From Gemmatimonadota bacterium (GTDB lineage: Bacteria; Latescibacterota; UBA2968): a stretch of 33,013 nt of DNA. The notes beneath the pieces are model-generated. The model saw only the letters and a list, made by a program, of their open reading frames with translations, made no database searches and was not told where the DNA came from. The first letter of the stretch is position 1; every line of letters begins with the position of its first letter. Both the position numbers and the translations under genes were made by a program. The DNA is taken from NCBI GenBank assembly GCA_009838845.1, contig VXRD01000162.1, forward strand, positions 1 to 33,013, written 5' to 3'. This document shows, piece by piece, positions 12,474 through 20,850 of this stretch.

Positions 12474-13367
12474 ATGAGCAAGACTGCTGATGACTCCGAG
12501 AAGGTTCGCTGGTGGCCTTTTTGGTTGATACTTTCATTTGTCGTAATTTTTTGGTTCCTATTCCTTATTGAATTGTTTCCTTGGTGGGTTACTGATCATA
12601 GAGGGCAATTTGGTGACTCGTTTGGGGTCATCAATGCACTGTTCTCTGGGTTGGCTTTTGCGGGTGTCATTTGTGCAATACTACTTCAAAAGAAGGAACT
12701 TGAGCTTCAACGGAAGGAGTTAAAGGACACACGTACCGAAATCAGGGGGCAAAAGGAAACACTTCAGAAGCAGAATTTTGAGAGTTCCTTTTTTCAACTT
12801 CTTGGTCTGTATAATGATATTGTTGGTTCATTGATTATGTCAAAGGGGAAGGTTTTTAATTCCAAAGGGTTCCCGGTAGGTCAGAGTTTGGGAGAGTATC
12901 GTGGACGTGAATGTTTTGAGAATTTACTCACAAGATTTAAGAATTTCTATGATCAAGATAAGGAAGATGAAAAAAATAAGGAAATATCTCAGGATATAGA
13001 GGATGATGACGACTCTTACTTATTTGCATATATAGACAAGACATGCGAAAATTTTTTTACTAATTATCAATCGCATATTAGTCATTATTTTCGACACCTG
13101 TATCATGTTGTCAAATTTGTTGATCACAGCGATCAAGAAGTTAAAGCAAAAAAGTTCTATACCGATCTCATACGCGCACAACTGTCAAGTGAAGAAATGG
13201 GTCTTCTCTTTTACTATGGTCTGAGTGACCAAGGAGCCAAATTCAAGGATTTGGTTGAGAAATATGCCCTTTTTGAGGACATGCCTTCAAAAGTGCTTAT
13301 AGATGAAGAACACCGGAAGCTCTACGCCCCGAGTGCTTATGGCGAAATGGTGTATGAATGCGAGTGA
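12474..13367 (+). CDS. Putative phage abortive-infection protein (putAbiC type)
   Basis: A membrane protein of 297 aa. Two transmembrane helices lie at about residues 13-39 (FWLILSFVVIFWFLFLIEL) and 46-71. The second contains FGDSFGVINALFSGLAFAGV, the hallmark of the putAbiC family. A coiled coil follows (about 72-105, ELELQRKELKDTRTEIRGQ), then QNFESSFFQLLGLYNDIV and a soluble C-terminal half. The family is linked to lactococcal AbiC, which stops phage growth by killing or arresting the infected cell; the mechanism is not known. AAAGGAT stands before the ATG. AT-rich codon use differs from the genes just upstream, marking the start of accessory block B. Confidence 0.8.
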   Translation: MSKTADDSEKVRWWPFWLILSFVVIFWFLFLIELFPWWVTDHRGQFGDSFGVINALFSGLAFAGVICAILLQKKELELQRKELKDTRTEIRGQKETLQKQNFESSFFQLLGLYNDIVGSLIMSKGKVFNSKGFPVGQSLGEYRGRECFENLLTRFKNFYDQDKEDEKNKEISQDIEDDDDSYLFAYIDKTCENFFTNYQSHISHYFRHLYHVVKFVDHSDQEVKAKKFYTDLIRAQLSSEEMGLLFYYGLSDQGAKFKDLVEKYALFEDMPSKVLIDEEHRKLYAPSAYGEMVYECE

Positions 13368-13369
13368 GC

Positions 13370-13393
13370 GGTGTACAACTGCGGTAGCAGTTC
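13370..13393 (-). repeat. 24-nt dispersed palindromic repeat, copy 2
   Basis: The reverse complement of this stretch matches 7881-7904 at 22 of 24 bases. It begins two bases after the stop of the abortive-infection gene and contains AACTGC/GCAGTT arms around a 4-base loop. Confidence 0.8.
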
Positions 13394-13423
13394 ATTTGAT
13401 TGAAATGATACTCAAAGGTCTCT

Positions 13424-13693
13424 ATGAAAGTCTTTTGGACAGACTATCTAAAATACAAAGCCTCTTTACGCAGATTTGATCTGTTCGTAATTGAAAATAT
13501 AGTCAGACATTCTTCTGAGCGATATTCCGATGTGGTCACTGGCCGCCGTGTTGCTGTTGGGCGTTGCGATAACAAGTTGGTCTTGATTCCTTATGAATCG
13601 GAAGGTGACGTTATAACACCCGTGACTATCCATGTCACCACACGGCAGCAAATCAATGTTCGAATTAAAACAGGGAGATTCATCTATGGGTAA
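13424..13693 (+). CDS. DUF4258-like small protein, probable toxin partner of DUF2283
   Basis: The protein has 89 aa and is basic. It begins VFWTDYLKYKASLRRFDL and carries RHSSERYSDVVTGRRVAVG, then VLIPYE and ITPVTIHVTTRQQIN near the end, a pattern common to DUF4258-type proteins placed before a DUF2283 gene. The fold is thought to be RelE/BrnT-like, but I cannot assign active residues. AAAGG lies before the ATG. It overlaps the next gene by eight bases, the usual coupling of a toxin-antitoxin pair. The toxin role is inferred from context. Confidence 0.7.
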   Translation: MKVFWTDYLKYKASLRRFDLFVIENIVRHSSERYSDVVTGRRVAVGRCDNKLVLIPYESEGDVITPVTIHVTTRQQINVRIKTGRFIYG

Positions 13694-13907
13694 TACAAAG
13701 ATGAGGTACTTTGAGCAAGAAGACATCTTATACCTGGCGATTTCTGATGATCCAGAAAATGGCAGCATTGAACTCAGTCCCAATATCACAGCAGAATACA
13801 ACGATAAAGGTGAACTCATTGGCATTGAAATTCTCAAGGCCAGTGACTTTATTCGAGATTCGGTTGCAGAGTCTGTACAGGGAAAAATGCTTCACTTGCT
13901 CAAGTGA
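13686..13907 (+). CDS. DUF2283 family small protein, probable antitoxin
   Basis: The protein has 73 aa and is acidic. The characteristic phrases are MRYFEQEDILYLAI, ELSPNITAEYNDKGELIGIEIL and ASDF. The family is a small beta-sheet protein often encoded just after a DUF4258-type gene. The ATG at 13686 is chosen over the in-frame ATG at 13632 because it gives the family's normal start, has GGGAG upstream and makes the short overlap with the toxin-like gene. Its last codons (AESVQGK) reappear as a relic at 14238. Confidence 0.8.
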   Translation: MGNTKMRYFEQEDILYLAISDDPENGSIELSPNITAEYNDKGELIGIEILKASDFIRDSVAESVQGKMLHLLK

Positions 13908-13968
13908 GAATCTGAAAGAGCACACGTAGAAAACAGATAATCATCACGACCTCAAAGGTCAGAAAATT

Positions 13969-14229
13969 ATGGCTACTATGAGTAATTACACCCTGCGACT
14001 GCTCGCCTCGCTTAAAGCCGAGGCGGAAAAAGTGGCAGAGGAAGAGGGCACAACGCTCAACCAGTTTATTAACGTGGCTGTGGCGGAGAAGTTGGCTGCT
14101 TTGCGGACGGCCCGCTATTTTCAAGAACGCGCCACACGTGCTGATTTGGAGGCTTTTGATCATTTTCTGGGGACGGCGGGCGATGAGTCACCAGGCTGTG
14201 GGGATGAGATACTGCCAGCAGAAAATTGA
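13969..14229 (+). CDS. Ribbon-helix-helix antitoxin-like protein (HicB/Arc type)
   Basis: The protein has 86 aa. YTLRLLASLKAEAEKVAEEE is the beta strand and first helix of a ribbon-helix-helix DNA-binding fold, followed by GTTLNQFINVAVAEKL as the second helix. Such proteins are often annotated as HicB-family or CopG-like antitoxins and repress their own operon as dimers. No toxin gene lies directly beside it: downstream is only a relic of a DUF2283 tail and an orphan HicB-like gene. The start could be the ATG at 13978 (MSNYTLRL) instead. Confidence 0.75.
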   Translation: MATMSNYTLRLLASLKAEAEKVAEEEGTTLNQFINVAVAEKLAALRTARYFQERATRADLEAFDHFLGTAGDESPGCGDEILPAEN

Positions 14230-14237
14230 TGTTCGAG

Positions 14238-14268
14238 TGCAGAATCTGTACAAGAAAAGACTTCTCAA
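14238..14268 (+). pseudogene. Relic of a DUF2283 gene 3' end
   Basis: TGCAGAATCTGTACAAGAAAA (starting at 14238) matches the 3' end of the DUF2283 gene (from 13865) at 18 of 21 bases, and in frame encodes AESVQ-E-K against AESVQ-G-K. It lies between the RHH gene and the HicB-like gene and has no start of its own. A 15-base stretch here (14254-14268) recurs exactly at 15808-15822. Confidence 0.4.
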
Positions 14269-14283
14269 CTATGGAGAGAACAG

Positions 14284-14478
14284 ATGAATTATCAGATAAC
14301 AGCTCTTATTGAACGCGAGGGCGATGGCTACGTATCTCGGTGTCCTGAATTAGATGTGTGCAGCCAGGGAGATAGTATTGAAGAGGCACGAGCTAATTTG
14401 CAAGAGGCTGTGGAGTTGTTTTTGGAATGTGCTTCGCCTGAAGAAATAGAGGAGGTCTATCACGCTGCCCGAGTTTGA
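14284..14478 (+). CDS. HicB-like (UPF0150) orphan antitoxin
   Basis: The protein has 64 aa. The sequence begins with YQITALIEREGDGYVSRCPE and continues LDVCSQGDSIEEARANLQEA, the full partial-RNase-H-like HicB fold. HicB proteins neutralise the HicA mRNA interferase, but no HicA gene (dsRBD-like, about 60 aa) is present on either side: upstream is the RHH antitoxin, downstream the AAA ATPase. It may be a solitary protein, as many UPF0150 members are. GGAGAGA precedes the ATG by a normal distance. There is no DNA-binding C-terminal extension. Confidence 0.8.
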   Translation: MNYQITALIEREGDGYVSRCPELDVCSQGDSIEEARANLQEAVELFLECASPEEIEEVYHAARV

Positions 14479-14538
14479 GAATGCAAAGGGATTTTACACA
14501 CGGAACGGGGCAATCAGTCCACAAGATCGGGACACTGA

Positions 14539-14567
14539 TTGTCCTATTATTTTTTGACTATTATATT
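14539..14567 (+). promoter_or_regulatory. Possible promoter for the second RloA-like ATPase
   Basis: TTGTCC (14539-14544), 17 bases, TATATT (14562-14567), 33 bases before the ATG at 14601. The region is AT-rich, so chance matches are likely. A TATTGCAAT direct repeat occurs at the -10 box and again just before the ATG. No clear ribosome site is seen. Confidence 0.35.
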
Positions 14568-14600
14568 GCAATCTCGACGAAAAATTGTTATTATTGCAAT

Positions 14601-15797
14601 ATGATTCACAAATTTTCCATATCTAATTTCCATTCGGTCCGCGAAGAAGTGGTTCTTGACCTGCGTATTCCGGGCACTGCCCCCGACCTGCCGCGGTTCC
14701 GAAGGAGCACAGCAAAGCCGGATATTCGGCTTCCTTCCGTCGTCGTGCTTATAGGTCCCAACGGATCGGGCAAGACAACGTTGCTCAGTGCGCTGGTCGC
14801 TACAGCCTTCACTGCCACATTCTCATCATCCACTGAGGAGATCAGACCGATCATGGGCTTTTTACCCTTTTGGGCTAAGGAAACCAGAAATGAACCGACG
14901 CGGTTTTGCCTGGAGTTCGAAGCAGATTGGCTGGGAGAAGCCCATCAGTTGTTCCGATACGAGTTGGCAGTGGTACGCAGTGGTAATGATTCTTTCTTCT
15001 CTTACGAAGCCCTGTCCCACTTTCCAAAGGGTCGCCCCCGACGCCTTTTCGAGCGCGGTGCCCCGGGAGAACCTATATATGTTTCTCACGAATTTGGCCT
15101 TAAGCCCAAAGATGATCGTCTCCAGGCAGTTCGAGCAGACACATCGGTGATCGCCACGCTCAATCTGCTCAATATATCTCTGGCGATGCGTATTGTGAAA
15201 TGGATGAAAGAATTTCTTTTGTCATCCAATATCATGATTCGCGAGAGATGGGCACCTCCAACCCAAACGGTGATGGATCTATTCGAGGACAACTCCGATA
15301 TGGAATCCTGGGTTAGAAATCATATCCGATCCAGTGATTTGGGAATTCAAGATATAACTATTTCTGAACAATCTGGAAAAAAGGAAGTGTTCTTTAACCA
15401 TCACGGGCTTGACATGCCGATCCCCCTGAGTTTTGAATCCAGTGGAACGAAACGCCTGTTCCATCTGCTGCCTCAGATCGGTATAGCGCTCAGCAACGGC
15501 GTTCCTGCTGTCCTCGACGAGATAGACGCCGATCTTCATGTGGATATCGCCAGCGAAATTCTTAGCTGGTTCCGTTCCCAGGAGACTAATCCTTCAGGCG
15601 CACAGCTTTTTGTCTCCTCTCACAATGTCGGTCTGCTCGACAATCTGGAAAAGGAGGAGATTTTTATTGTCGAGAAGGACAGTAGTGGCGCGACCCGTGT
15701 GCATGGAGCACAAGATGTGCAGGGTCTTCGCCGAGATACGCGTCTCTATCCCAAATACCGGGCGGGGGTGCTCGGTGGTATTCCAAAGATTGGTTAA
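14601..15797 (+). CDS. AAA family ATPase, RloA-like (second copy of the family)
   Basis: The protein has 398 aa from the ATG at 14601. The open frame begins at 14475, but the extra 42 residues are not family-like, and FSISNFHSVREEVVLDL is the expected first strand. Walker A IGPNGSGKTT is at 51-60, Walker B VLDEIDADLH with D306, and the switch motif is SSHN. The C-terminus YRAGVLGGIPKIG parallels the GRMGGIPRI end of the ATPase at 26. The two are only distant relatives, so this is not a recent duplication. No RloB-like partner follows; a strong terminator lies 56 bases downstream. The role is probably defence, acting alone or with a distant partner. Confidence 0.85.
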   Translation: MIHKFSISNFHSVREEVVLDLRIPGTAPDLPRFRRSTAKPDIRLPSVVVLIGPNGSGKTTLLSALVATAFTATFSSSTEEIRPIMGFLPFWAKETRNEPTRFCLEFEADWLGEAHQLFRYELAVVRSGNDSFFSYEALSHFPKGRPRRLFERGAPGEPIYVSHEFGLKPKDDRLQAVRADTSVIATLNLLNISLAMRIVKWMKEFLLSSNIMIRERWAPPTQTVMDLFEDNSDMESWVRNHIRSSDLGIQDITISEQSGKKEVFFNHHGLDMPIPLSFESSGTKRLFHLLPQIGIALSNGVPAVLDEIDADLHVDIASEILSWFRSQETNPSGAQLFVSSHNVGLLDNLEKEEIFIVEKDSSGATRVHGAQDVQGLRRDTRLYPKYRAGVLGGIPKIG

Positions 15798-16222: not shown

Positions 16223-17068
16223 TTACCGATCCACCACACACCGAAATCCAAGGGTATTGGTCTGGAGATTGGATGTTCGAGCGTCGCGCGCTGTTGTGCG
16301 CACCAGGAAGGCCGTGCTGAACCAGGATCCGCCGCGGACAACGCGTTCGAGGTGCAAGAAATGGGTTTTGATTTCGTAGTTGACGGGGTTATCGCGTGGG
16401 CTGCGTTGATAGTACGCGCTGTCGTATTCGTCTTGTGTCCATTCCCAAACGTTGCCGGCCATGTCCGATACGCCATAAGGGCTGCGCCCGTCTCTATTGC
16501 CTTCACGATAATATGCAACAGGTGCTGTGCCGTTGTCAAAGGGGTCGCCGCTGTTGAGGTAGTTGGCGCGGTTGGGATCCGGGGCAGCGCCCCAGGGATA
16601 GATACGCCCATCGGTTCCGCGTGCTGCTTTTTCCCATTCGGCTTCGGTGGGCAGGCGTCCGCCGAGCCATGCGCAGTATTCGCCGGCTTGAAACCAATTG
16701 ATGTTGACAACAGGATGTTCGGGCGGGTCGAAGTTGGGCAGTTGACGTTCTGCGATGGCGTAGGGGTTCCATTGGGCATTGGAGATTTCTGTATGGTCTA
16801 TGTAATAGGCTTTGAGGTGGACGGTGTGTTCAGGTCCTTCGTTGCGTATGCCGTTGTTGGCACCCATTTCGAACGGTCCTTCGGGTATTAAGATGAGGGT
16901 GTGTGTCGTGCCCACATGGGTTGTGATCTGGATACCGGTTTGCGTCTGCGATACAACGGGCGGTGGCGACTCTGGTTCTTCCGGCGGGGCAGTGGGTTTG
17001 TCTTTGCATCCGGGTAGGACGGTAGAGAGGATGATGAGATAGAGGGTTGTGCGGGTAATAGTCTTCAT
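16223..17068 (-). CDS. SUMF1/FGE-family lipoprotein
   Basis: The protein has 281 aa. Residues 1-21 form a lipoprotein signal with lipobox LPGC (C21), followed by a proline-rich linker, so it is probably anchored in a membrane outside the cytoplasm. The rest is a formylglycine-generating-enzyme-sulfatase domain: IPEGPFEMG, HPVVNINWFQAGEYCAW, RLPTEAEWEKAARG, GNVWEW, RVVRGGSW and GFRCVVD. The two catalytic cysteines that human FGE carries shortly before the GFR end are absent here (VRTTARDART), so it is probably not a formylglycine generator and may be a binding protein. No good ribosome site is visible before the ATG. Confidence 0.85.
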   Translation of the reverse strand: MKTITRTTLYLIILSTVLPGCKDKPTAPPEEPESPPPVVSQTQTGIQITTHVGTTHTLILIPEGPFEMGANNGIRNEGPEHTVHLKAYYIDHTEISNAQWNPYAIAERQLPNFDPPEHPVVNINWFQAGEYCAWLGGRLPTEAEWEKAARGTDGRIYPWGAAPDPNRANYLNSGDPFDNGTAPVAYYREGNRDGRSPYGVSDMAGNVWEWTQDEYDSAYYQRSPRDNPVNYEIKTHFLHLERVVRGGSWFSTAFLVRTTARDARTSNLQTNTLGFRCVVDR

Positions 17069-17135
17069 AGTGAATCAGGTAGAGAATGTATGGGAGAGTG
17101 GGAAATATCACTCAATATAATGTATCGGTATTAAA

Positions 17136-17172
17136 AGAGAAACCATCTGCTATTAAGGTGTGTCTAATGGGT
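17136..17172. repeat. Diverged 37-nt direct repeat, copy 1
   Basis: Begins AGAGAAACCATCTGC and contains TGTGTCTAAT. It aligns without gaps to 17625-17661 at about 28 of 37 positions. It ends just before the HigA-like gene. Confidence 0.5.
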
Positions 17173-17185
17173 TAAGGTGACGCTT

Positions 17186-17527
17186 ATGAAATCGAAATTA
17201 CAGACTATCACTAAATTGACAGAGCGACGGCTTCCGACCAACCGACCACCGACGCATCCGGGCGAAATGTTGTTGGAAGAATTTCTCAAGCCCCTGGGAA
17301 TCAGTCAATCGGCCTTTGCAGTGAGATTAGGCGTCTCATTCCCGCGTTTGAATGAAGTTATAAACGGCAAGCGATGTGTCACACCAGATATCGCATTGCG
17401 TCTGGCACAGGTGCTGGGCATGTCCGCAGATTTCTGGCTTGACTTGCAATCGGATTGGGATTTGTGGCATGCGATGCGCACTGAACAAGCAGAGAAAATC
17501 GCACAACTTGAGCCATTGCCCGATTGA
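17186..17527 (+). CDS. higA: HigA-family antitoxin (XRE helix-turn-helix)
   Basis: The protein has 113 aa. RPPTHPGEMLLEEFLKPLG is the classic HigA/VapI opening, followed by an HTH (ISQSAFAVRLGVSFPRLNEV), then VTPDIALRLAQVLGMSADFW and a C-terminal helix. HigA proteins bind HigB toxin and repress the operon. HigB normally precedes higA, but no room or reading frame for it exists upstream, so this is an orphan. The ATG at 17186 is preferred over GTG at 17177 because AAGG stands eight bases before it. It is flanked by a diverged 37-nt repeat and followed by a copied terminator and peroxiredoxin tail. Confidence 0.85.
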   Translation: MKSKLQTITKLTERRLPTNRPPTHPGEMLLEEFLKPLGISQSAFAVRLGVSFPRLNEVINGKRCVTPDIALRLAQVLGMSADFWLDLQSDWDLWHAMRTEQAEKIAQLEPLPD

Positions 17528-17540
17528 TCTATTCTGACTA

Positions 17541-17572
17541 AAAAGGTCTGTGACACTCGTCACAGGCCTTTT
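17541..17572 (+). terminator. Terminator, near-copy of the one at 20167
   Basis: A 14-bp stem AAAAGGTCTGTGAC/GTCACAGGCCTTTT (one G-T pair) with a 4-base loop and GCTTTTT after it. The stem and flanks on the right match 20164-20250 at roughly 80%. Confidence 0.85.
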
Positions 17573-17592
17573 GCTTTTTACGGGTGGCTCGG

Positions 17593-17619
17593 TTAGTCAG
17601 CAGGGTGCTGTATTACGTG
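17593..17619 (-). pseudogene. Relic of a peroxiredoxin gene 3' end
   Basis: Read on the minus strand this encodes HVIQHPAD followed by TAA; the intact peroxiredoxin downstream ends RVIQQPAE TAA. Together with the copied terminator this is a duplicated fragment of about 80 bp that has drifted. Nothing further of the peroxiredoxin is present to the right. Confidence 0.6.
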
Positions 17620-17624
17620 CTGAA

Positions 17625-17661
17625 AGAGAAACTATATGCGATCCAGATGTGTCCAATTGAT
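17625..17661. repeat. Diverged 37-nt direct repeat, copy 2
   Basis: Begins AGAGAAACTATATGC and contains TGTGTCCAAT. It starts just where the peroxiredoxin relic ends and precedes the FtsX-type permease gene. Confidence 0.5.
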
Positions 17662-17705
17662 GATAGTTTTTTAAGATGCTCTATTTGTAACGGAGGCGGG
17701 TTGTT

Positions 17706-20153
17706 GTGTTTAGAAATTATCTGGTTATCGCACTGAGAAATCTCAATCGGCAAAAATCCTTTAGTGCAATTAATATTCTGGGGCTTGCCATTGGTCTGGG
17801 TACGTGCTTTTTGATCGTGCTCTATATTCAGGACGAGTTGAGTTTTGACAGTTGGCATGCAAAAGGAGATCGGATCTATCGCGTGATCCGAGAGACCCGA
17901 TCTGGAGGGCAATCAGATTATTTGCCATTAACGTCGGGTGCGCTGGCGCGGGCACTTGAGCGGGATTTTCCCGAAGTAGAGAAAGCCGTGCGCGTGATAA
18001 CGTGGAGTTCCGTAGATGTGCGTTTGGATGAAAAAAAGTTCGAGATGGGTGTCTGTGTTGCGGATCCCGAGTTGTTTGAAATTTTCGATTTTCCCTTTGT
18101 GCGCGGCAATCTCGAAACTGCATTTCCCAATCCCAATGCGATCGCGATAACAGAATCAGCAGCAAAACGGTTGTTTGGAGACGAAGATCCGATTGGCAAG
18201 ACCATCACCGCTGAGAGCAATCACCACGGAGGCGAGCGCACCATCACAGCGGTATTAAAAGATATGCCTCGCAATTCTACACTCGGCTTCGGTGAAATCG
18301 ATTATCTCTCAACAGGCGGATTTACGTCCCCAGGCGCGAAATACGCCTGGGAAGATTGGATACCAACCGATGGTTGGCGTCCCGTCAATACGTATTTTTT
18401 GCTGCGAGAAGGGGCGGATCCAAAGGCGCTGTCCGCAAAATTTCCCGAATTGATTGATCGCTATATGGGGGCAGAGATCGCACGCACAAATGCGTATCAT
18501 CTCCAGCCTCTCAATCGCATTTATCTCTATTCGAGGCAGGACTACAACCTGGATTGGTACGGCGATATTGACCGCGTTTATCAATTTGGGGCTATTGCAG
18601 TTCTGGTGCTTGCGATTGGATGTATTAATTTCACAAATTTGACGACGGCGCAATCGGCTCGCAGGGCGCACGAGGTGGGTTTGCGAAAGGTATCGGGTGC
18701 GTATCGTTCACAACTGATGGGGCAGTTTTTGGGCGAGTCTGTTCTCACGGCAATGGTCGCGCTTGTGCTCGCGCTTAGTGCCGTCGAACTTGTGCTTCCC
18801 GAGTTTAATGCCTTTTTCTATAAGCAGATTGAGTTGAATTTGTCGAGTGATCCTTTGCTCGCCATTTCTTTGATTGGTATTGCCGTATTTGTCGGGCTGT
18901 TGGCTGGTGTTTATCCCGCATTTTTTCTTTCGGCGTATGAACCCACAGAGACGCTAAAGGGGGCTTTTCGCGCGGGTTCTCGGGGGCAGTGGATCCGGAA
19001 GGGGCTGGTGGTGGTGCAATTTGCGATTTCAATTATCCTGCTCGCGAGTACGGGAGTGATCTATCGGCAACTCGATTATATGAGAAACAAGAATCTGGGT
19101 TTTAATGTGGAGCAGATGGTGCTCATACCTATATTTGTTCTCGATCAGGAGACAAAATCGGATCCGGGGCAAAAGCTCGCCGCCCGTTATGCGACGGTGA
19201 AAGAGGCTTTTCGCGCCCATCCGAATGTGCTTGAGGTGACGGCGTATCGCTGGTGGATTGGATGGGGCGGGGGTATTACCCGAACCATTCGGGCAGAGGG
19301 ACACGAGGGCACGGACTGGCGCATGCCCCTTCTGGAGGTCGATGAAGATTATCTCGATGTGTTTCAAATCGAACTGGTAGAGGGACGTAAATTTGATCCG
19401 ATTGCATTTCCGACAGATACGTCAAGAGCGTTTATTATCAATGAAACAGCGGTTGCGCGGCTCGGTTGGGATGATCCTATTGGCAAGTCTTTTGAGTGGG
19501 TTGATCGGGTGAGAAATCGGAAGGGGACGGTGATTGGCGTTGTGAAGGACTTTCACTATAGTCCGTTGCACGAAAAAATTGGGCCCATTGCACTGACGCT
19601 TCGGCATCAGCAATTTTATAATCTGGGCGCGCGCGTCAAAGCCGAGGGTATGGAAGAGACGCTCGCTTTTTTTGAAGAGACCTGGAAGCGTTTCGCTCCC
19701 GCAGATCAGCCTTTTGATTATCTGATGTGGGATCAGCAGTTTGAATATATGTACTCTGCAGAACAACGAGCGCAGGCGCTGACGTTGTTCTCTTCGGGGA
19801 TGGCGATTTTGCTCGCGTGTATGGGGCTTTTTGGTCTTGCGGCATTTACAGTTGAGCAGCGCGTGAAAGAGATTGGGGTGCGCAAGGTGTTGGGTGCGAG
19901 CGTGTCCAATATTGTGATTTTGGTTTCCAGAACATTTGCAATTATGGTTTTGATTGCGAATTTGTTTGCATGGCCGGTTGTGTATTTTGCGATGGACAGT
20001 TGGCTGGCTGGCTTTGCCTATCGCACGGATCTTTCGTGGTGGATATTCGTTTTGAGTGGGGCGGTTGCCCTGGCGATTGCGTTGTTTACTGTGAGTTTCC
20101 ACGCCCTTCGCGCGGCGGTATCGAATCCGGTGGAAGCACTGCGGCATGAATAG
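17706..20153 (+). CDS. FtsX/MacB-type ABC transporter permease
   Basis: An inner-membrane protein of 815 aa with a GTG start and GGAGG nine bases before it. It has a duplicated plan: an N-terminal helix (about 16-40), a periplasmic MacB_PCD domain, three helices of an FtsX core (about 290-410), another helix (about 433-453), a second periplasmic domain, and a final FtsX core. The cytoplasmic phrases HEVGLRKVSGAYR and VKEIGVRKVLGAS are the coupling segments that contact an ATPase. No ATP-binding subunit is encoded nearby. Members of this family act as mechanotransmission exporters of lipoproteins, peptides or antibiotics; the cargo is unknown. A paralogue of the same plan is at 27601. Confidence 0.9.
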   Translation: MFRNYLVIALRNLNRQKSFSAINILGLAIGLGTCFLIVLYIQDELSFDSWHAKGDRIYRVIRETRSGGQSDYLPLTSGALARALERDFPEVEKAVRVITWSSVDVRLDEKKFEMGVCVADPELFEIFDFPFVRGNLETAFPNPNAIAITESAAKRLFGDEDPIGKTITAESNHHGGERTITAVLKDMPRNSTLGFGEIDYLSTGGFTSPGAKYAWEDWIPTDGWRPVNTYFLLREGADPKALSAKFPELIDRYMGAEIARTNAYHLQPLNRIYLYSRQDYNLDWYGDIDRVYQFGAIAVLVLAIGCINFTNLTTAQSARRAHEVGLRKVSGAYRSQLMGQFLGESVLTAMVALVLALSAVELVLPEFNAFFYKQIELNLSSDPLLAISLIGIAVFVGLLAGVYPAFFLSAYEPTETLKGAFRAGSRGQWIRKGLVVVQFAISIILLASTGVIYRQLDYMRNKNLGFNVEQMVLIPIFVLDQETKSDPGQKLAARYATVKEAFRAHPNVLEVTAYRWWIGWGGGITRTIRAEGHEGTDWRMPLLEVDEDYLDVFQIELVEGRKFDPIAFPTDTSRAFIINETAVARLGWDDPIGKSFEWVDRVRNRKGTVIGVVKDFHYSPLHEKIGPIALTLRHQQFYNLGARVKAEGMEETLAFFEETWKRFAPADQPFDYLMWDQQFEYMYSAEQRAQALTLFSSGMAILLACMGLFGLAAFTVEQRVKEIGVRKVLGASVSNIVILVSRTFAIMVLIANLFAWPVVYFAMDSWLAGFAYRTDLSWWIFVLSGAVALAIALFTVSFHALRAAVSNPVEALRHE

Positions 20154-20166
20154 ATAGTGAAAATAA

Positions 20167-20198
20167 AAAAGGTCTGTGACAAGTGTCACAGACCTTTT
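20167..20198. terminator. Bidirectional terminator between permease and peroxiredoxin
   Basis: A perfect 14-bp stem AAAAGGTCTGTGAC/GTCACAGACCTTTT with a 4-base loop, T-rich on the plus side (GCTTTTT) and equally T-rich when read on the minus strand. It serves both convergent genes. Confidence 0.9.
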
Positions 20199-20217
20199 GC
20201 TTTTTGCGGGTGGTCGT

Positions 20218-20850
20218 TTACTCAGCGGGTTGCTGTATGACGCGCAAATAGGGTTTTACAGCGGTGTATCCGGGGAATCGCTCGTCGGCTTCTTCGTCTG
20301 TAACTGTAGGCGAAATAATCACGTCTTCGCCGGGTCGCCAGTTCACTGGCGTGGCCAAACTGTGCCTGGCTGTCAATTGCAGGGAATCGACTACGCGCAG
20401 TATTTCGTCGAAGTTGCGGCCCGTAGATGCGGGGTAGGTGAGCATCAGTTTGATTGTTTTGTCGGGTCCAATTACAAATACCGATCGCACAGTTAGCGTG
20501 TTATCTGCATTGGGATGGATCATTTCGTAGAGGTCGGCTACCTGGCGGTCAGGGTCGGCGATCATCGGATAATTTACGGTTGCATTTTGCGTTTCGTTGA
20601 TGTCGCTAATCCAGCCTTCATGGGATTCGAGGGGATCAACGCTGATGGCTAAAACTTTGACGCCGCGCTTGTCAAATTCGTCTTTGATATTCGCCATGGC
20701 GCCCAATTCGGTGGTGCATACCGGCGTAAAGTCGGCGGGATGGGAGAACAGAATGCCCCAGCCATCGCCCAACCATTCGTGAAAATTGATGGTGCCTTCC
20801 GTGGTTTCTGCCGTAAAGTCGGGGGCAACATCGCCTAACTGCAATGACAT
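20218..20850 (-). CDS. 1-Cys peroxiredoxin (Prx6 subfamily)
   Basis: A cytosolic peroxide reductase of 210 aa. The peroxidatic site is HPADFTPVCTTELG with C45, the PVCTTE wording of the Prx6 group. There is no other cysteine in the protein, so it is a true 1-Cys enzyme needing an outside thiol. The long C-terminal part (from about 150) matches the Prx6 dimer extension. The start at 20850 (MSLQLGDVAPDF) is chosen because AAAGG lies before it and the 15 residues upstream in the open frame are not family-like. A good promoter lies about 65 bases upstream. Confidence 0.95.
   Translation of the reverse strand: MSLQLGDVAPDFTAETTEGTINFHEWLGDGWGILFSHPADFTPVCTTELGAMANIKDEFDKRGVKVLAISVDPLESHEGWISDINETQNATVNYPMIADPDRQVADLYEMIHPNADNTLTVRSVFVIGPDKTIKLMLTYPASTGRNFDEILRVVDSLQLTARHSLATPVNWRPGEDVIISPTVTDEEADERFPGYTAVKPYLRVIQQPAE

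Follow-up and report, generated by a model that had tools for sequence, protein, structure and literature searches.

Duplicated edges of a permease block around a higA antitoxin gene: a probable tandem duplication followed by loss in a bacterial genus

Introduction

How did a copy of the end of a peroxiredoxin (prx) gene, together with its terminator, come to lie on the far side of a neighbouring permease gene and behind an antitoxin gene that has no adjacent toxin? Changes of gene order in bacteria are usually visible only as end states. Here, three gene orders, the joint and both duplicated edges survive in one genus, so that the path between them can be rebuilt.

The window, that is, the whole stretch of DNA that was analysed, is one entire contig (C162, positions 1–33013) of a genome that we call G000 (5.75 Mb in 172 contigs). 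We compared it to ten further genomes of the genus (G001–G010; n=11 including G000). The genomes used are mostly fragmented assemblies, which is a weakness of the whole comparison. The features of the locus are as follows.

16223–17068, minus strand: gene with an FGE-sulfatase domain, left of higA with a short gap between them (domain search)
17069–17176, plus strand: U1, first of the two copies of the permease upstream region, which now precedes higA (repeat core 17134–17168)
17186–17527, plus strand: higA antitoxin gene, no adjacent higB (TIGR02607 antidote_HigA, HTH_3)
17541–17572, plus strand: T1, duplicated terminator hairpin, now 3' of higA (terminator scan, folding)
17593–17619, minus strand: duplicated last codons of prx, HVIQHPAD-stop, a remnant without the rest of the gene (sequence, repeat match, genus-wide alignment)
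17610–17620, strand not applicable: duplication joint GTATTACGTGC, where the prx tail is joined to the permease upstream region (genus-wide alignment)
17614–17705, plus strand: U2, second copy of the permease upstream region (genus-wide alignment)
17706–20153, plus strand: MacB/FtsX-type permease, 815 aa (MacB_PCD and FtsX domains)
20167–20198, strand not applicable: T2, the original terminator hairpin; the permease and prx genes converge on it (folding)
20218–20850, minus strand: intact prx gene (AhpC-TSA, 1-cysPrx_C; NF009668 213.7 bits, cut-off 211)

The permease scores 307.4 bits against TIGR03434 (ADOP), under the cut-off of 622.3. An Rfam search of the window gave nothing at the gathering threshold. 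Upstream of the locus, positions 12474–15797 encode two proteins that perhaps mark a defence region, namely putAbiC (putative phage abortive-infection protein) and an AbiEii-type AAA_21 ATPase.

Results

Two edges of one block are present twice

A sequence-only reading of this DNA had held that the tail and terminator of prx are duplicated and that the two copies bracket the FtsX permease, and both statements were borne out. Positions 17540–17587 and 20166–20213 are 90% identical over 48 nt without gaps, and a gapped match joins 17540–17620 to 20166–20245 with 85% identity over 80 bp (E=7.2e-19, searched against the whole 5.75 Mb of G000). By direct reading of the minus strand, the first copy ends in HVIQHPAD-stop (17593–17619) and the prx gene in RVIQQPAE-stop; the permease (17706–20153) lies between the two. 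No third place in G000 matches at E≤0.001: the search returned the query itself and the copy at 20166–20245, whose hairpin gave a further hit on the minus strand. With only two matching places and an E-value this low, the tail repeat is neither due to chance nor a genome-wide repeat. The idea of a genome-wide, terminator-type repeat unrelated to prx, which the same reading had named as its refutation, draws on the fact that terminators can look alike. We exclude it for practical purposes, as only two places match in G000 and the homology extends into prx codons in four genomes.

Furthermore, we detected a second direct repeat that had been overlooked before. Positions 17134–17168 and 17623–17657 are identical at 80% of 35 nt, and the repeat score of U1 and U2 was reached by none of 1000 mononucleotide shuffles. 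One copy lies before higA and the other before the permease. U1 can also be aligned with the permease upstream region of G001, G003, G005, G007, G009 and G010, each of which has only one. Taken together, the two repeats show one block with both of its edges doubled: the permease upstream region on the left, and the terminator with the prx tail on the right.

Three arrangements exist in the genus

When comparing the locus across the genus, we find three arrangements. Type 0 has the order permease-terminator-prx (5/11); it is contiguous in G001, G003, G008 and G009 and was read from two contigs in G010. In type I, the order is permease-higA-terminator-prx (G005 and G007, 2/11). Type II has the order upstream1-higA-tail copy-upstream2-permease-terminator-prx (G000, G002, G004 and G006, 4/11), with overlapping parts of one upstream region on either side of higA and the tail copy. 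The order without duplication that is expected under a tandem duplication followed by loss is thus present, in the type 0 genomes. Among these is the most diverged member of the genus, G008, whose permease has 76.7% DNA identity to that of G000 and whose outer neighbours differ; we therefore take type 0 as ancestral. In G010, both contigs with the locus (L052 and L055) break inside the permease, which could be a simple gap or could point to a repeated permease at that place.

The sequence-only reading had also suggested an insertion of the permease between two prx copies. This explanation, or an insertion into a single prx gene, would account for the two prx tails that bracket the permease. 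A transposon would be expected to leave a short target-site duplication and inverted ends; the direct copies that flank the permease are about 80 bp long, and the sole inverted pair around it (I1) is the palindromic hairpin itself. The comparison with the type 0 genomes speaks against an insertion of the permease, by a transposon or otherwise: G001, G003, G009 and the most diverged genome, G008, have permease, terminator and prx in one contiguous run, with neither higA nor a tail copy. Moreover, each of the 11 genomes contains one prx gene (E≤1e-40; a single match in G000), and a second full prx was found in none of them at this threshold. We consider an insertion of the permease very improbable.

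The same reading had proposed to look for relatives in which prx lies next to higA with no permease between them. Exactly this order occurs in two genomes, G005 and G007; their permease is on the upstream side of higA. A scan of contigs for higA, covering the best 80 of 495 relatives, gave four loci of the genus, which correspond to those of G002, G004, G005 and G006, and no further close example among the matches listed. In three genomes from other genera of the family (G011, G012 and G014), the permease was not found beside prx within about 1.5 kb of flank 3' of prx. The adjacency of permease and prx may thus be a feature of the genus.

The joint lies at one point in all type II genomes

In 4/4 type II genomes, the prx tail is joined to the permease upstream region at one identical point: the tail runs to GCTGTAT, and the permease upstream region follows at TGAAAGAG or CAAAAGAG. 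The two block ends resemble each other here. In G003, the upstream region reads TATTACGTGC where prx reads TATGACGCGC, and 8/10 positions are identical; G003 is the best of the six single-copy upstream regions, with 6/10 in G001 and the other four aligning less clearly. In Salmonella, confirmed duplications have short direct repeats of 11 bp or more at their joints (PMC3411829). Compared with these repeats, the microhomology found here is shorter and imperfect, which counts against the history that we propose below. As a separate observation, contig C38 of G004 carries, at an unrelated place (L046, 3680–6215), a further permease together with its terminator and 24 nt of prx tail; this copy stops at GCTGTAT, where the tail also stops in the tandem joint.

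The joint between higA and the terminator is homologous in 6/6 higA carriers, which indicates one insertion of higBA. Downstream of the type II permease, the spacer to T2 aligns throughout with that of genomes without higA (it is 6 nt shorter in G000); thus, the second unit carries no scar of a higA that has come and gone. The 4/4 T1 copies have five A before GG; the T2 copies and type I have six and G008 has seven, which is a difference of little weight.

A proposed tandem duplication of the permease block followed by permease loss

We propose that the permease block was once duplicated in tandem, that the tail copy marks the right-hand end of this duplication and that higA ended up with a spare upstream region before it and a spare terminator behind it; we put the probability of this history at roughly 0.7. 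In the following, U stands for the permease upstream region, F for the permease, H for higA (once higBA), T for the terminator with the prx tail and P for prx. From an ancestral order U-F-T-P, a higBA module would have inserted between F and T, giving U-F-H-T-P, the order that is still present in G005 and G007. An unequal joining, at the short microhomology shared by the prx tail and the beginning of U, would then have placed a second U-F-T-P behind the prx tail. In the simplest case, one of the two chromosomes joined would have carried H and the other not, and the product would be U1-F1-H-T1-U2-F2-T2-P. A subsequent loss of F1 would give the present order, U1-H-T1-U2-F2-T2-P, and higB would also have been lost in G000. 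The doubled block would begin with the permease upstream region and take in the final ~27 bases of prx. As an outcome, higA would have shifted from behind the permease to before it, gaining a spare permease upstream region and a spare terminator.

This history agrees in kind with the tandem duplication followed by loss that the sequence-only reading had offered. It differs in the unit and in the part that was lost, which we infer to be a permease copy and not a prx gene; with one prx per genome in 11/11 genomes, no second prx is needed. Both the order of the steps and the intermediate with two permeases are reconstructions. None of the 10 contiguous loci of the genus holds two permeases (G010 is broken inside the permease), and in G006, the genome examined for this, the 70 nt after U1 and left of the higBA promoter contain no permease relic. 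These 70 nt match the higBA promoter region of G007 alone and not permease sequence. Both negative results weigh against this history, although such an intermediate may have vanished.

The missing relic favours a different route, in which higBA, the terminator and the prx tail were copied from a type I locus into the upstream region of a type 0 locus, with a staggered joint doubling part of that region. Such a templated insertion would never involve a second permease and thus requires no permease loss. It also fits the joint between higA and T, which is identical in types I and II, and a second unit without a higA scar. On the other side, at least 35 nt of upstream region would have to be doubled as a side effect, which a tandem duplication yields for free, and the right joint sits where the two block ends resemble each other. 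We therefore judge the templated insertion to be unlikely.

A classic tandem duplication from type I with reciprocal loss, in which U-F-H-T was doubled whole and the first F and the second H were lost, predicts the same joints and is analogous to the tandem duplication-random loss model of mitochondrial gene order. In its strict form, a different gene is lost from each unit. The first permease is indeed missing; the scar of a second higA is absent. As the spacer between F2 and T2 equals that of genomes without higA, the second higA must have left exactly or have been replaced by recombination. This makes reciprocal loss improbable, and we retain the duplication of the permease block with loss of the first permease as our preferred history.

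The antitoxin gene is retained without an adjacent toxin gene

The protein encoded by higA is a HigA antitoxin by curated score (111.6 bits against TIGR02607, cut-off 47.7). In G000, a HigB-type toxin gene adjoining higA is absent at this locus: there is no room for it at 17068–17186, and the terminator follows higA. The higB gene is likewise missing beside higA in G002 and G007. G005 has a full higB before higA (PF05015, 57.6 bits), and in G004 and G006 (L045 and L048) the higB between U1 and higA is cut after the first codons and followed by two small genes. In G004, these encode 106 and 143 aa and have no match in Pfam (E up to 10) or NCBIfam (E up to 1); the second is PIN-like by eye only. 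Among the six copies in the genus, pairwise dN/dS of higA is 0.00–0.21. Thus, higA is under purifying selection although the adjacent higB is gone in G000, and the antitoxin has outlived its adjacent toxin. Part of this selection may predate the loss of higB. Survival without the toxin is reported for orphan antitoxins in general, with anti-addiction and regulation named as possible roles (PMC7354431); both are possibilities for HigA here.

A promoter scan of 17040–17730 found none (mean of 1.2 in shuffles), which counts against the proposed history. That U1 may drive higA is thus suggested by its position only.

The duplicated hairpin is kept and the tail has decayed in part

T1 and T2 have the features of intrinsic terminators, a GC stem followed by a T run, in folding and scan. 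T1 folds with −21.7 kcal/mol on the plus strand, which is the strand of higA, and with −16.7 kcal/mol on the minus strand; the values for T2 are −23.6 and −22.5 kcal/mol, respectively. The scan detected a 14-pair stem of T1 on the plus strand and a shorter, 7-pair terminator-like match on the minus strand. The hairpin arms of T1 are kept at 26/26 positions in each of G002, G004 and G006 and at 25/26 in G000, where the single change still allows pairing on the higA strand (G-U) and gives a mismatch (C-A) on the opposite strand. The hairpin is thus kept on the higA strand, a pattern consistent with the use of T1 as the terminator of higA.

To estimate decay of the tail, 21 nt of prx tail in T1 were compared with the T2 of the same genome. 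There are three changes in G000 and two changes plus a deletion in G002. In G004, the two are identical (21/21), and in G006 they agree at 20/21, with the odd base in T2 and the common base in T1. The tail has hardly changed in the latter two genomes; decay is thus not general, and we count this against the proposed history.

The arrangements do not follow the groups of neighbouring genes

Trees of neighbouring genes suggest three groups of genomes: {G002, G004, G005, G006} (support 0.91 for the upstream gene and 0.33 for the downstream gene), {G000, G001, G003, G010} (0.73 and 1.0, respectively) and {G007, G009} (0.96 for the upstream gene and 1.0 for the permease). In the prx tree, G004 is placed outside and the first two groups are not recovered. 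The higA tree separates {G000, G002, G004, G006} from {G005, G007}, i.e. it splits by arrangement; this is a single split, whose two sides carry the printed values 0.94 and 0.99 after midpoint rooting. Partial or absent sequences were left out of trees and dS estimates (the downstream gene and permease fragments of G009, the permease of G010, and the upstream and downstream genes of G008); for dS, G008 was excluded and codons with gaps were dropped.

Between G005 and G007, dS is 0.15 for higA and 0.29–0.33 for neighbouring genes. Given the lower value for higA, type I has probably passed from one lineage to another. For G000 compared with the remaining type II genomes, dS is 0.35–0.44 for higA and 0.19–0.38 for neighbouring genes. 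We considered a recent import of higA into G000 from a sampled type II genome and dropped it, as its dS is similar to or above that of the neighbouring genes. Type II in G000 is either old or derived from an unsampled lineage. Of the group formed by G000 and its near relatives G001, G003 and G010, G000 alone carries higA, which counts against the proposed history, since this patchy occurrence needs several losses or an exchange between lineages. A further point against it is that, in the alignment, the short upstream region of the G000 permease resembles that of the other clade more closely than that of its own.

Copies of the permease and of its upstream blocks

Several observations concern the permease itself. 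Within the window, positions 18495–18953 (459 nt, permease positions 790–1248) are identical to a paralogue on contig C124 of G000 (L053, 4558–7014), and outside this run stretches of 200 nt are 75–94% identical. Either gene conversion has taken place recently, or the repeats were confused during assembly. The permeases of G002 (L043) and G006 (L048) are 98.5% identical, with a longest identical run of 570 nt, and their neighbouring genes are 93–96% identical; judged by this difference, the permease appears to have been exchanged between the two lineages.

Extra copies of the permease elsewhere were examined for carriage by mobile elements, with neighbouring ORFs viewed by eye; some of them share a regulatory upstream block. 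This block of up to ~110 nt consists of a hairpin, GGCACATTG...CAATGTGCC, followed by GTGTTCATTTTCGGACAC, and was found at 27 places besides the query in 8 of the 13 genomes searched (upstream of 4558 in L053, before permease copies in L069 and L070, and in L167–L178, L180 and L181). These places are possibly a regulon. Before the permease paralogues of G000 and G005, the block is followed by TTGGCACAGAAATTGCTT, which resembles a sigma-54 promoter. In addition, G001, G003, G007, G009 and G010 (L042, L044, L049, L051 and L055) have about 65–70 nt extra upstream of the permease, containing TTGACG-N17-TACACT, a sigma-70-like promoter as judged by eye; G000, G002, G004, G005 and G006 are without this stretch.

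Comparison with known systems

The duplication is most likely an event of a known kind, an ordinary process that is unusually well preserved. Its effect is local, and the component processes are already known. The locus suggests how a gene may take over an upstream region and a terminator that its neighbour already has, and how an antitoxin can outlive its toxin.

In the tandem duplication-random loss model of mitochondrial genomes, neighbouring genes swap their order via a transient tandem duplication, and relics of the duplicated ends stay between the genes. The locus described here is similar in that the gene order would have been swapped in this way and relics of duplicated ends lie between the genes. 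It differs from the mitochondrial model in that it lies on a bacterial chromosome, that probably only one true loss occurred (the second unit may never have held higA) and that the intermediate is unseen. The literature on duplication-random loss that we found deals mostly with mitochondrial genomes; our search, which was not exhaustive, gave no example for a bacterial chromosome.

The spontaneous rearrangements in Salmonella (PMC3411829) are alike in that a duplication has short direct repeats at its joint. They arose in a laboratory population with repeats of 11 bp or more, whereas the joint found here is old, common to four genomes and matches at 8/10 positions at best. In Streptococcus pneumoniae, transformation yields merodiploids in which incoming DNA can give two different versions of a block in tandem (PMC3784515). 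There, unequal crossing-over runs through repeats and the duplications span ~100–900 kb, whereas here a block of 2.6 kb would have been joined at microhomology and an uptake of DNA is only hypothetical. Finally, the orphan antitoxins of type II toxin-antitoxin systems (PMC7354431) resemble our case in that higA is kept without an adjacent higB; the higA studied here differs in that both of its flanks are duplicates, a permease upstream region on one side and a terminator on the other.

We tentatively suggest, with some doubt, that the locus may represent a bacterial case of reordering by duplication and loss with its scars retained. An orphan antitoxin gene would thereby have been moved past a transporter gene and re-housed between extra copies of that gene's upstream region and terminator, and might now be expressed like the permease, while the different orders would persist and be exchanged across the genus.
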